NCBI GenBank assembly: GCA_028823035.1
Contig: JAPKCI010000002.1
Span: forward strand, 1-64,000
Direction: 5' to 3'
DNA length: 64,000 nucleotides
Source of the DNA: Rubripirellula sp.
Lineage (GTDB): Bacteria; Planctomycetota; Planctomycetia; Pirellulales; Pirellulaceae
Shown here: positions 1 to 56,689 of the stretch, piece by piece
How the letters are laid out: each line of letters begins with the position of its first letter
Numbering within the stretch: the stretch's first letter is position 1
Made by a program: the position numbers and the translations under genes
Notes under the pieces: model-generated
What the model was told of the DNA's origin: nothing
Databases searched by the model: none
What the model saw: the letters and a program-made list of their open reading frames with translations, nothing else

Positions 1-54
1 TTTCCAGATCTCAGTTTCCAGATCTCAGTTTCCAGATCTCAGTTTCCAGATCTC
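1..54. repeat. 14-bp tandem repeat (tttccagatctcag), about 4 copies, cut by window edge
   Basis: Unit tttccagatctcag read directly, repeated head to tail from base 1. Confidence 0.95.
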
Positions 55-17468: not shown

Positions 17469-18536
17469 GTGTCCACTGCATCTTCCCTCGCACCGTTGAC
17501 CATTGGCAATGTTGCGATCGGTTTCCCGATCGTGCAAGCGGCGTTGTCAGGCTATAGCGACCTGCCGATGCGAGTGATCGCTCGGCGGCATGGTGCCAGC
17601 TATACAATCTGCGAGGTGATGCTGGATCAGTTCCTGCTTGCACTTAGCAAGCGACAAAAAACCAAGCACTTTCTCGATATCCACCCCACAGAACATCCCG
17701 TCGGCGGACAATTGATGGGTGCCGAGCCAGAACAATTTGCTCTGGGTGCCATGAAATTAGTAGAAGCGGGCTTTGACATCATCGACGTGAATTTTGGTTG
17801 TCCCGTCAAGAAAGTTCTGGGTCGATGCAGGGGTGGATTCCACCTGTCCCAACCTGAAGTTGCCATCAATATTCTTCGGCGAACTCGCGATACCGTGCCC
17901 GCAGAGATACCCGTGACTGTGAAGATGCGACGCGGCATAGACGATACCGATGAATCCCGCGACAAGTTTTTTCAGATTCTTGATGGTGCCATCGATTCCG
18001 GACTGGCCGGCGTGACCGTGCACGGCCGGACCGTACAGCAAAGGTACATTGGCCCTAGCCGCTGGTCGTTTCTCTCGGAGGTCAAGCAGCACGTTGGAAA
18101 TCACATCAAAGTACTCGGCAGCGGTGATTTGTTCTGTGCTGAGGATTGCCTGCAGATGATCCAGAAAACGGGGATCGATGGCGTCACCGTAGCCCGCGGC
18201 GCAATCGGTAACCCCTGGATCTTTCAGCAAGCCAAGGCCCTTTCCGAGGGTCGTCCCATGCCCTTACCACCGACGCTGGCTGAACAGGCAGACGTGATGA
18301 GAGAACACTTCACGCTGTGTCAACAGACTTACAACGAGCAGCGTGCCCCGCTGTTGATGCGAAAGTTCTGCATCAAGTATTCGCAAAACCATCCGCAACA
18401 CGAAGTGGTCCGGCTCGACGCGACTCAAATTCGCTCGCGAGAAGACTTTGACCAGATGCTGCTCAATCACTATTCAGATGATTCCGCAGGGCGTTATGTA
18501 CCACGAGAGATCTATGGTTCCCAAGAAGAATGCTGA
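17469..18536 (+). CDS. dus: tRNA-dihydrouridine synthase
   Basis: AALSGYSDLPMRVIARRHGASYTICEVM; DIIDVNFGCPVKKV; VHGRTVQQRYIGPSRW; GSGDLF; VARGAIGNPWIF. Confidence 0.92.
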   Translation: MSTASSLAPLTIGNVAIGFPIVQAALSGYSDLPMRVIARRHGASYTICEVMLDQFLLALSKRQKTKHFLDIHPTEHPVGGQLMGAEPEQFALGAMKLVEAGFDIIDVNFGCPVKKVLGRCRGGFHLSQPEVAINILRRTRDTVPAEIPVTVKMRRGIDDTDESRDKFFQILDGAIDSGLAGVTVHGRTVQQRYIGPSRWSFLSEVKQHVGNHIKVLGSGDLFCAEDCLQMIQKTGIDGVTVARGAIGNPWIFQQAKALSEGRPMPLPPTLAEQADVMREHFTLCQQTYNEQRAPLLMRKFCIKYSQNHPQHEVVRLDATQIRSREDFDQMLLNHYSDDSAGRYVPREIYGSQEEC

Positions 18537-18548
18537 AATGGCAATCCT

Positions 18549-20003
18549 CTATTCTTCCTCATCCTTCTTGTAGTAGTCGAGTCGACGATAGAGTGTCCGG
18601 GCGCCGATCTGCAAAATTTTCGCCGCCTCATCTCGGTTGTCATTGGTGAGCTTGAGAGTTTCCTCGATCGCCCATCGCTCAATGACGGAGAGGGACTGAC
18701 CAATCAGATTTGAATCGCCCTGAATGGGCAATTGTGCATCCGCTAAATCCTCAAAGACATCATCTGCCAACTCAGGTGGCAAGTCATCCAGATCGAGCTT
18801 TCCATCCGTATCGAGAACAACCATGGTTTCGACAAAATTGCGCAACTCTCTTACATTGCCAGGCCAATCATAGGAAAAGAACCGTTTGGTCACAGCGGGC
18901 GTGAAATGGGCTGCAGGCTTATCGTGACGGCGCAGAAAAAATTTGCGGAAGTAGTCCATCAATGGAACAACATCCTCCAGTCGATCACGCAAGGGTGGTA
19001 GTTCAACAGTCACCACTTTTAGGCGATGGTAAAGATCCTTGCGGAAAGTACCCGCGTCGATCATGTCCTGCAATGGCCGATTCGTCGCTGAAATCAGTCG
19101 GACATTAACCTTGATCGTCTTGTTATCACCGACACGGGTAATCTGATGTTCTTCCAAAACACGCAATAGTTTAATCTGTGTATTGGCAGGCATGTCGCCC
19201 ACCTCATCAAGAAACAACGTGCCGCCATTGGCGTATTGAAATGCTCCTTCGCGGTCAGAGACGGCGTCGGTGAACGAACCCTTCACATGCCCGAACAGCT
19301 CACTTTCGACAAGATTCTCGGCTATCGCTCCGGTATTGATTGCAACCATACGCTTGCTGCGTCTTGGGCTGTTCTGATGGATAGCCTGCGCAATGATTTC
19401 CTTGCCAGTGCCATTTTCACCGGTAATCAAAACGGTCGCATCAGTCACAGCAATCCGACGCAAACGGTCAATGACCATTTGCATCTTTTTACTTACGTAA
19501 ATGATACCCTCGAACCCGAACCGCTCATCGAGTCGCTGCAGAAGTTCAGTGTTCGTGCGTTTGAGCGATACCGCCTCAGCTGCTTTTTCGACAATTGCGC
19601 GAAGTCGATTGGGTGTGATCGGTTTTTCAAGAAAGTTGAAGGCGCCCTTCTGCATTGCCTCCACAGCCACCGGAACGGTTGCATGTCCAGTTACCATCAC
19701 CACCTCGCAGACTGGCAATCGTTCCCGTGCAAGCTTGAGAAGTTTCATGCCGTCAACGTCGTTCATCACCATATCGGTGATGATGATGTCGTAGGTTTCC
19801 AGTTCCACCAGTTTGGCGGCTTCAGGTCCACTGGTTGCGACTTCGCAGCGGTAACCAACCTTCTCGAGACTTTCTGACATTGCCCGCGCATGAGCTGCCT
19901 CGTTATCGACCACCAGCAATTTCAGGCTGGATGGATCGAATGCCGCCAAATGGGTGGGTTCGCCCCCACCTCTTGAGGAATCGGACCGTTCTTCACTTGC
20001 CAT
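18549..20003 (-). CDS. Sigma-54-type response regulator (receiver, AAA+, Fis-like HTH)
   Basis: Receiver LLVVDNEAAHARAM/IIITDMVMNDVDG; AAA+ ITGENGTGKEIIAQAIH, GGTLFLDEVGDMP; C-term DEAAKILQIGARTLYRRL. Confidence 0.93.
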   Translation of the reverse strand: MASEERSDSSRGGGEPTHLAAFDPSSLKLLVVDNEAAHARAMSESLEKVGYRCEVATSGPEAAKLVELETYDIIITDMVMNDVDGMKLLKLARERLPVCEVVMVTGHATVPVAVEAMQKGAFNFLEKPITPNRLRAIVEKAAEAVSLKRTNTELLQRLDERFGFEGIIYVSKKMQMVIDRLRRIAVTDATVLITGENGTGKEIIAQAIHQNSPRRSKRMVAINTGAIAENLVESELFGHVKGSFTDAVSDREGAFQYANGGTLFLDEVGDMPANTQIKLLRVLEEHQITRVGDNKTIKVNVRLISATNRPLQDMIDAGTFRKDLYHRLKVVTVELPPLRDRLEDVVPLMDYFRKFFLRRHDKPAAHFTPAVTKRFFSYDWPGNVRELRNFVETMVVLDTDGKLDLDDLPPELADDVFEDLADAQLPIQGDSNLIGQSLSVIERWAIEETLKLTNDNRDEAAKILQIGARTLYRRLDYYKKDEEE

Positions 20004-20177
20004 CTTATACGCTCAGACCAAGTACCGAATTGATGGATAAAAACTGATTTGCGAACACTCTCGGGATTTCACTGCCCAATTTTAGAAGATGTTGGCGTTC
20101 TCCGGTCAGGAAAAGTCGAAACAGATTAGGTGAAGCGCGGAGTACTTGCTCCGGCAATGCCCGTCGTTTCATCCGAT

Positions 20178-20247
20178 CGGAAAGATACTGCCCCATCTTT
20201 CCGTCACGTTAAGTTCCTACGGGTTGCTGCCCCACCCGTAGGAGCTT
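20178..20247. ncRNA. Candidate structured RNA: two adjacent perfect hairpins sharing a loop core; strand uncertain (plus favoured)
   Basis: cggaaagat-actgcccc-atctttccg and aagttcctacgggt-tgctgcccc-acccgtaggagctt, followed on plus by ttcttttt-like tract. Confidence 0.45.
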
Positions 20248-20280
20248 TTCTTTTTCACCAGCGATTCTTCTCCAGTTGGC

Positions 20281-23200
20281 TCAAAGTGATTTTGCATAGC
20301 GACTTTGCAGAGACTCGACCTCCAACTCGACCTCTCTCGTTGCTCGCATGGCCCTCACCGCCACCTCGGCTGCAGCAAGCGTGGTGATGCAAGGTACTCC
20401 ATGCTGAACGGCGGCAGCCCGAATCCGTCCCTCATCCGTTCGTGCTCCCTTGCCGCTGGGCGTATTAAGAATCAGCTGAACATCATCATTTTTGAGGTAA
20501 TCGATGAGGTTAGGGTGGCCCTCTGCCAGCTTCTTGACCCGCGTCACCTCGACGCCTCCTTCCTCAAGCTTCGCCGCAGTCCCGGACGTTGCCAGAATCT
20601 CGAAGCCCAAGTCCAGCAGTTCAAGGCCGATGGCCTTCGCTGCATCTTTGTGGCGGGAACTTAAACTGATGAAGATTTTGCCGGTTTCTGGTAACAGGCT
20701 ACCGGCTGCGATTTGGCTTTTCGCAAAGGCGAGGGAAAACTTGTCGCTAACCCCCATGACCTCTCCGGTACTTCGCATTTCCGGTCCCAACACGATGTCG
20801 ACGCCGGCAAACTTGCGGAATGGGAAGACACTTTCCTTGATGGAAACGTGACGCGGAATTGGCTCTTTGGTGACATTCTGCTCAGCAAGCGAGATGCCCG
20901 CCATGACCTTGGTGGCAATGTTAGCGACAGGAACTCCAGTTGCCTTTGCCACAAACGGTGCCGTCCGCGATGCGCGAGGATTGACCTCCAATACATAGAG
21001 AGTAGGACATTGGTCTTCAGACTTGATCGCAAACTGGATATTCATCAGTCCAATCACGTTCAGGCGTTTCGCAAGTTTGTTGGTTGCGGCGCGAATTTCA
21101 TGAAGTATCGGCTGCGTCAAGCTGAACGGCGGAATCGCACAAGCGGAGTCCCCCGAATGGACACCTGCCTCTTCAATGTGTTCCATGATCCCCATGATCA
21201 CACAGTCGGTGCCGTCGGCGATCGCATCAACGTCAACTTCGGTGGCGTCTTCGAGAAAACGATCAATCAGCACGGGCTGACCATCCGCGACAACAAACGC
21301 CTCGGCCACATAGCGGTCAAATTGCGTCTGGTCATAACAGATCTCCATCGCCCTGCCGCCAAGAACAAAGCTGGGCCGCACAAGCATCGGGAAGCCGATG
21401 ATCTTGGCCGCCACACGAGCTTCGGCCATGTTTCTTGCGATTCCGCTGGGCGGCTGTCTTAAACCCAACTCATCGATGAGTTGCTGAAACAGTTCTCGAT
21501 CCTCTGCTGCTTCAATGGTATCGACACTGGTGCCGATGACCGGCACACCCGCCTCCGACAAACCCCGCGCCAGATTCAGTGGTGTTTGGCCACCAAACTG
21601 AACAATCACACCATCCGGTTGGATGGCATCACAGACATTCAGAACATCTTCGATTGTCAGTGGCTCAAAGAAGAGCATGTCCGAAGTGTCATAATCGGTA
21701 CTCACCGTCTCGGGATTACTGTTGATCATCACGCTCTCGTAACCGATTTCCCGGAGCGCGAAACTGGCGTGGCAACAGCAGTAATCGAATTCAATCCCCT
21801 GCCCGATGCGATTGGGTCCACCACCCAGAATAACCACCCGCTTCTTGTCACTCTTAGGAGGCAGCTCATCCTCGATTTCATAAGTGCTGTAATAGTAAGG
21901 CGTGTAAGCCTCGAATTCGGCAGCACAGGTATCCACGCTCTTGAAGACCGGTCGCACACCGAGTTCCAACCGCCTGGCACGGACTTTCGTTTCAGTCGTT
22001 GATGTGATCTTGGCAATCTGGCGATCGGAGAATCCGTCCCTTTTCGCCTCCCACATCTCGTCCCGTGTAAAACTCTCGAGAGTGCCGATCTCTATCAAGC
22101 GGTTTTCATGCTCGATGATTTGGGAGAGATGATCCAGGAACCAGACATCAATGTTCGTCAGACTGAACACTTCGTCGATTGTCATGTCAGCCTTGAGGGC
22201 GTAACGGATGTAGAAAATCCGCTCCGCCCCGGGCGTGCTCAGCTTCGCTCGAATTTCGTCGAGATCAGGCTGTAGTTCCGTTCCCCACGCATCTCGATTG
22301 TCGCTACCCAGACCGAAAGCACCGACTTCCAGTCCACGCATCGCTTTTTGCATCGACTCACGGAACGTCCGTCCGATCGCCATCGTCTCACCAACGCTTT
22401 TCATCTGTGTCGTTAGCGTTGCGTCAGCCTCAGGGAACTTCTCAAAAGCAAATCGGGGCATCTTCGTGACAACGTAATCAATCGTTGGCTCGAAGCACGC
22501 CTTGGTCTGCTTCGTAATATCGTTCGGCAGTTCCCATAGCAGATAACCCACGGCAAGCTTGGCTGCAATCTTTGCGATGGGAAAACCTGTAGCCTTGCTC
22601 GCCAACGCACTGGACCGACTAACGCGAGGATTCATTTCGATCACGATCATTCGCCCAGTATTAGGTTCGATCGCAAACTGAATGTTACTGCCGCCCGTTT
22701 CCACGCCGATTTCCCGGATTACTGCCAGCGAAGCATCACGCATCCGCTGATATTCCTTGTCAGTCAATGTCTGCGCTGGTGCCACGGTGATAGAGTCACC
22801 AGTGTGCACTCCCATGGCATCAAAGTTCTCGATGCTGCAGACAATGACAACATTATCATCCTTGTCACGCACCACCTCCATCTCGTACTCTTTCCAGCCA
22901 ATGATTGATTCTTCAATCAACACCTCTGTGACTGGTGACTGATCAAGACCATTTTGCACCAGCGCGTCAAAGTCATCCTTGTTGTAAGCAATGGCTGAAC
23001 CGCTGCCCCCCATGGTGAAACTGGGTCGCACAACAGCAGGCAATCCCACGTTATGCAAAGCTTCGCGGGCTTTCTCAAGGGTCTTGACCGTGTTTCCATT
23101 ACAGGTTTCCAAACCGATTTTTTGCATGGCAGCCTTGAACTGCTCACGTTCCTCCGCCTTGGCAATGACCGCCGCGTTCGCACCGATCATTTCAACTCCG

Positions 23201-23532
23201 TACTTTTCCAGAACCCCGTTGGCTTCCAAATCCATGGCGCAATTCAGACCAGTCTGACCACCCAAGGTCGGGAGCAGGGCATCTGGACGTTCCTTCGCAA
23301 TGACCTTCTCGATCATCTGCCAGGTCAGAGGCTCGATATAAGTTGCATCTGCGGTTCCGGGATCTGTCATGATGGTCGCAGGGTTGCTGTTAACCAACAC
23401 GACCTCGTAGCCCTCCTCTCGAAGAGCCTTGCAAGCCTGAGTTCCTGAGTAGTCAAATTCGCAAGCTTGTCCAATCACAATTGGACCGCTGCCAATGATC
23501 AGAATTTTTTTGATATCGTCGCGACGGGGCAC
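20281..23532 (-). CDS. carB: Carbamoyl-phosphate synthase large subunit
   Basis: [29 protein letters not shown], duplicated ATP-grasp halves, C-term MGS-like domain; likely GTG start at 23532 (ORF extends to 23577). Confidence 0.97.
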
Positions 23533-23867
23533 GTTTGTAGTTCCAGCGGCGTAGATTGACGAAGGATGAATCACCAAACTTGCAAGAAGCCAACCTCGCG
23601 TTCCGACCCGGAGGGTCCATCACTGGGAAACTCGGCACTCTCAGTGACTAGTAAACGGTGACTGGTAGAAACATCGACAGAGTAAGGTTGACACCTGCAA
23701 ATTGAGGCAGAGGATAGCAGAAAACGCGTGAGTCGTAGAGGACGCATCTAAACGCCAAAGTAAACGGGGCCCGTGGTCTCGTCCAAGGGACTTGGAACAG
23801 AACCATCATTGCCCCTCACCGGCACTTTTTTGGCATCCGATGGAACTATTATCGGCTGAGCAGCAAA

Positions 23868-56653: not shown

Positions 56654-56689
56654 AAAAGACCGTCGGTTTCATAGCCGGCGGTCTTTTTT
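56654..56689 (+). terminator. Intrinsic terminator
   Basis: aaaaGACCGTCGG-tttcatag-CCGGCGGTCtttttt: 9-bp stem with one G-U and a U tract. Confidence 0.9.

Follow-up and report, generated by a model that had tools for sequence, protein, structure and literature searches.

A candidate family of small RNAs with CUGCCCC loops in the Pirellulales, and its copy beside carB in Rubripirellula

Two hairpins flanked by carB and a sigma-54 response-regulator gene

The window, by which we mean the whole stretch of DNA analysed, is 64 kb from Rubripirellula sp. (Pirellulales; Pirellulaceae; assembly GCA_028823035.1, contig JAPKCI010000002.1, positions 1-64,000 of the forward strand). The element under study adjoins carB on one side and the gene for a sigma-54-dependent response regulator on the other, and comprises two adjacent hairpins, A and B, and a T-rich tract. 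Its features are given below, where R1 denotes a covariance model of the hairpin pair and R2 a terminator-only model built on 42 sequences.

18549-20003, minus strand: sigma-54-dependent response regulator (Pfam PF00158, PF00072, PF02954), divergent from the candidate sRNA
20169-20257, plus strand: sRNA core as modelled (match to R1, 93.5 bits)
20178-20203, plus strand: hairpin A, cggaaagat[actgcccc]atctttccg, a 9-bp perfect stem with the loop ACTGCCCC at 20187-20194; covarying helix 1
20211-20247, plus strand: hairpin B, aagttcctacgggt[tgctgcccc]acccgtaggagctt, 14 pairs with one U-G on the plus strand; covarying helix 2
20225-20233, plus strand: loop of hairpin B, 9 nt, TGCTGCCCC
20211-20258, plus strand: match of hairpin B to R2 (55.4 bits)
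20246-20255, plus strand: T-rich tract TTTTCTTTTT (ttttcttttt), an intrinsic-terminator tail and the expected 3' end of the sRNA
20281-23577, minus strand: carB (Pfam), convergent with the candidate sRNA and outside the element

The original prediction described adjacent hairpins with unrelated stems and a common CTGCCCC loop core, and direct reading of the sequence confirms this. Hairpins A and B are two of the 11 non-overlapping hairpins with at least eight net pairs in the 64 kb, and they form the only pair with a common loop among these 11; adjacent 9-bp hairpin pairs with a common loop 7-mer were found in none of 30 Markov-shuffled windows. CTGCCCC alone is not enriched in the window (12 occurrences versus 7.7 expected), and the signal is the placement of the motif inside hairpin loops, not its abundance. 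Relative to shuffles, the 87-nt plus strand, with a fold of -36.1 kcal/mol, has z = -7.7, and the minus strand has z = -4.9. An ordinary strong terminator-like hairpin, aaaagaccgtcgg[tttcatag]ccggcggtctttt, which is without the loop motif, lies elsewhere in the window at 56654-56687 on the plus strand.

The strand of the putative RNA can be read from its wobble pairs. When stems across the family are defined by Watson-Crick pairs only, 48 positions are G-U on the plus strand versus 7 that are A-C, and in six sequences from the same genus helix 2 is 100% paired on the plus strand via U-G, leaving A-C mismatches on the minus strand. In family members the CTGCCCC hairpin is nearly always the last one, and a T-run follows this terminator hairpin at the equivalent place. 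Because G-U pairs survive only on the plus strand, and because of the T-run, the RNA is assigned, from its sequence, to the plus strand, with hairpin B as the predicted terminator; the proposal of a short plus-strand RNA with C-rich loops that ends at the T-run is supported. A short sequence, TTTCTTG or TTTTGCGC, recurs 3' of the T-run in many members (for example, L141, L160, and L269).

Spread, covariation, and surroundings of the family

Conservation among relatives goes well beyond the two local loop copies of the window, as a covariance-model search found a family across its order. Members were recovered with R1 in 57 of the 241 genomes of the window's taxonomic family, and 69 loci were aligned and read. 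R2 at E<=1e-5 matched 119 of the 296 genomes of the order; the loop is CTGCCCC in every locus read from this order-wide search and was seen by eye in 11 families altogether. The inspected stems of the 69 aligned loci can have any sequence, and their loop is NNCTGCCCC or close to it. Two loop hairpins are present in 29 of these loci, one in 39, and none, by the stem rule used, in L172; L255 and L257 have three. Beyond the window's taxonomic family, members usually combine a single CTGCCCC terminator hairpin with a 5' hairpin whose loop is ordinary. The existence of an order-wide family of sRNA genes is therefore well supported at the level of sequence. Hits of R2 outside the order, among 392 sampled genomes of the phylum, were inspected and rejected as members, being weak matches to plain terminators without the loop.

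Copy number varies: many genomes contain just one, single-loop gene, and some have about a dozen copies. Two genomes (G128 and G129) give 14-15 R2 hits each, some of which are hairpin A of the same gene, and tandem arrays occur at L291 (G058:C364:5500-11500; four units in 1.2 kb) and L292 (G068:C188:84500-87500; three units in 0.5 kb), where every unit is complete, upstream region and terminator included. In the genome of the window itself, sequence similarity alone found only the window copy. A second candidate there (L267, G000:C287:7927-9971) has, on the minus strand at about 1001-1045, the stem GCCCCGTTGCTC/GAGCGGCGGGG around TGCCCC, followed by a T-run, and a similar hairpin without TG lies 740 nt from it (minus strand, about 259-303).

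Selection on loop identity with free stems had also been predicted, and homologues do keep CTGCCCC while their stems covary. Five more genomes of the genus have the same two hairpins at this place 3' of carB, with altered stems and retained loops (one reads TTGCCCC). In the six same-genus sequences both sides of 11 of 26 pairs change, and 93.6% of cells are paired, a result that none of 500 shuffles reaches; in a set of 14 loci that adjoin the regulator, both sides change in 19 of 26 pairs, and 93.5% of cells are paired. For 42 terminator hairpins, all 14 pairs covary (score 0.855 versus 0.281 for shuffles; 0/500) and CTGCCCC is kept, but these rows were anchored on TGCCCC and the covariance models likewise favour the loop, so that its invariance in the aligned set arises partly by selection. 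Less biased evidence on the loop comes from the synteny set, the out-of-order model hits, and a scramble test, which is independent of any model: GGTNNCTGCCCCACC occurs 52 times in 100 genomes of the family versus 21 times for the scrambled loop GGTNNCGTCCCCACC, with a concentration in many-copy genomes. A conserved C-rich apical loop on covarying stems, a mark of the C-rich-loop class of trans-acting sRNAs, is what these comparisons reveal.

Four loci of the same genus (L012-L015) have, 3' of carB, hairpins that are degenerate or absent and loops that are lost, with weak R1 scores for L013 and L015; the upstream region of the regulator (CTGTTTTCGACTTTTCCTG...) is retained there despite the loss of the hairpins. 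This pattern is lineage-specific decay of the sRNA, and because these four close relatives carry a degenerate element at the same place, the sRNA is dispensable in some lineages.

Many relatives have both a promoter and an intrinsic terminator. A sigma-70-type promoter is often found 50-100 nt upstream of members, many of them have -10-like boxes, which concentrate 60-100 nt before the terminator loop, and the pattern TTG[AC]-15..19-(-10) occurs within 110 nt upstream of 17 of 33 order-wide members versus 3 of 132 control windows. Examples are TTGACA-16-TAGAAT (L136-L138) and TTGCAT or TTGCAC with CATACT (L268-L279). The window copy has its terminator and no recognisable sigma-70 promoter upstream; within the genus, only the copy in G015 has one (TTGACC-16-TACGAT). 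In 44 of 66 members the gene upstream is read from the other strand, so most members are not terminators of a preceding gene; the 22 that follow a same-strand gene could also serve as the terminator of that gene.

Synteny around the element extends across genera. In four genera (g1, g83, g7, and g89; 14 genomes), orthologues of the window's sigma-54 regulator (73-100% identical) are divergent from the sRNA, and in seven other genera the sRNA is divergent from dus, which is the other neighbour of the regulator in the window, hinting at rearrangement around the sRNA. In the window, dus and the regulator are convergent neighbours (17469-20003). Regulation in cis of a single gene was considered and rejected, because the translations of the neighbours across relatives share no common function. 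A sigma-54 regulator next to a divergent sRNA recalls the LuxO-Qrr arrangement. However, the visible promoters are of the sigma-70 type, and we therefore make no claim of regulation by the sigma-54 neighbour; no sigma-54 promoter was seen by eye upstream of the window copy.

Proposed function and competing readings

On balance, we favour the reading that about 20170-20257 on the plus strand is the structured 3' part of an order-wide planctomycete sRNA gene, the loops of which act in trans as target seeds. The RNA would be short, with a core of about 90 nt and with hairpin B as the intrinsic terminator that ends it. One to three unpaired CUGCCCC loops would be presented on rigid stems whose sequence is irrelevant, most likely as seeds for pairing with GGGGCAG-like sites in mRNAs. 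Such pairing would probably repress translation or stability, and where there are several loops they would be redundant, as they are in 6C/B11 and sX13. C-rich-loop sRNAs share this design, in which a constant, unpaired and often repeated seed sits on exchangeable rigid stems. Expression in this organism, action in trans, and target binding through the loop are inferred. The computed energy of the CUGCCCC/GGGGCAG duplex is -13.4 kcal/mol. In the host genome G064, of which 1.6 Mb (a third, with 1133 genes) was covered, GGGGCAG is not enriched near predicted starts (5 hits, rank 27 of 42 permutations), in a test of low power with crude start calls. A broad regulon at ribosome sites is therefore unsupported in G064, and a small regulon would escape notice. 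Tentatively, the up to about a dozen paralogous sRNAs of a genome, tandem arrays among them, might form a post-transcriptional system found throughout the order, with one CUGCCCC loop code and a common partner, either a dedicated RNA-binding protein or a single shared mRNA site, and with the stems left to drift.

Somewhat unlikely, in our view, is that an RNA-binding protein binds the loops and that the sRNAs serve as its sponges or scaffolds, in the way that CsrB-type RNAs serve CsrA. Titration would suit identical loops repeated on interchangeable stems, one to three per RNA, with as many as about a dozen genes in a genome, and the result for GGGGCAG near starts in the G064 sample also speaks for this reading. 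However, no candidate protein was identified, the many genomes with one single-loop gene would have a weak sponge, and a loop with four C suits pairing with a G-tract, as the duplex energy above indicates.

The near-constant terminal position of the C-loop hairpin before a T-run, together with copies that lie 16-26 nt 3' of a same-strand gene (L164, L168, L173, and L180), would also suit a mere type of intrinsic terminator, one whose loop is kept because it benefits termination or the stability of the 3' end, with no regulation in trans. We regard this as improbable, since two thirds of members lack a same-strand upstream gene and a promoter often directly precedes their hairpins, non-terminator hairpins also carry the loop (in L157 and L172, only those do), and the terminators that R2 hits in the rest of the phylum lack it.

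A dispersed palindromic repeat of the REP kind, without RNA function, would account for the many copies and tandem arrays of some genomes, but copies of a repeat would not be expected to have unrelated stems around a retained loop, and the promoters and T-runs, together with synteny that is conserved across genera, also speak against it, making this highly improbable. Hardly credible is a minus-strand cis element with GGGGCAG loops, either the leader of the sigma-54 regulator, which the original prediction had offered as an alternative with GGGGCA loops, or the 3' UTR of carB: both flanking genes in the window are indeed read on the minus strand through the element, but there are A-C mismatches on that strand where the plus strand has G-U, the T-run is on the plus strand, and copies in relatives adjoin dus and many unrelated genes.

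Comparison with known RNAs

When the window and 35 relative loci were scanned with Rfam 15, no family matched the element, and the likeness to mini-ykkC noted in the original prediction is architectural only. RsaE uses a C-rich loop as its mRNA-binding seed, and TwoAYGGAY has tandem small hairpins with conserved terminal loops. A C-rich loop is likewise the mRNA-binding seed of HPnc5490/RepG and RNAIII, as discussed in PMC3771888. All three C-rich seed RNAs differ from the planctomycete element in having other loops and other hosts, and none gave an Rfam match here. In its account of mini-ykkC, PMC2864571 describes two small hairpins with conserved terminal loops (ACGR) in a 5' leader, whereas the planctomycete element is mostly free-standing, ends in a terminator, and has CUGCCCC loops.

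Closer likenesses are offered by 6C RNA (RF01066) and the mycobacterial B11, which are also short RNAs with two stem-loops and C-rich loops; in B11 (6C), the two C-rich loops redundantly repress a transcript with a six-G tract in its 5' UTR (PMC10470900). However, 6C loops contain a run of at least six C, whereas CUGCCCC has four in a row, and 6C differs from the planctomycete family in order and synteny as well. None of nine host genomes exceeded the cut-off of the RF01066 model (best 29.9 bits versus 47), and at the family loci it had no match at E<=1. The sX13 RNA of Xanthomonas (RF02232) is similar in its stable stems with C-rich loops, of which three act, independently of Hfq, on G-rich motifs close to starts (PMC3771888), but it belongs to a different phylum and has no common sequence beyond the C run; the best score of its model was 30.1 bits versus a cut-off of 50 (E 0.065), at one locus only (L293).

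The Rhodopirellula-1 motif of 2010 is listed for Planctomycetes and Proteobacteria as probably cis-regulatory (PMC2864571), in a table that gives it no Rfam number. We class the present element with a known functional kind of sRNA, as a new family. A search of the open-access literature found no such RNA in planctomycetes, and no description of a planctomycete sRNA turned up. Because of this, a loop motif that is clear and mutable, in a family that spans an order, would allow a direct test of post-transcriptional control in planctomycetes. Finally, the C-rich-loop design known from Actinobacteria, Xanthomonas, Staphylococcus, and Helicobacter seems to have arisen independently in this family, and this apparent independence would be an argument for the C-rich loop as a repeatedly reinvented solution.
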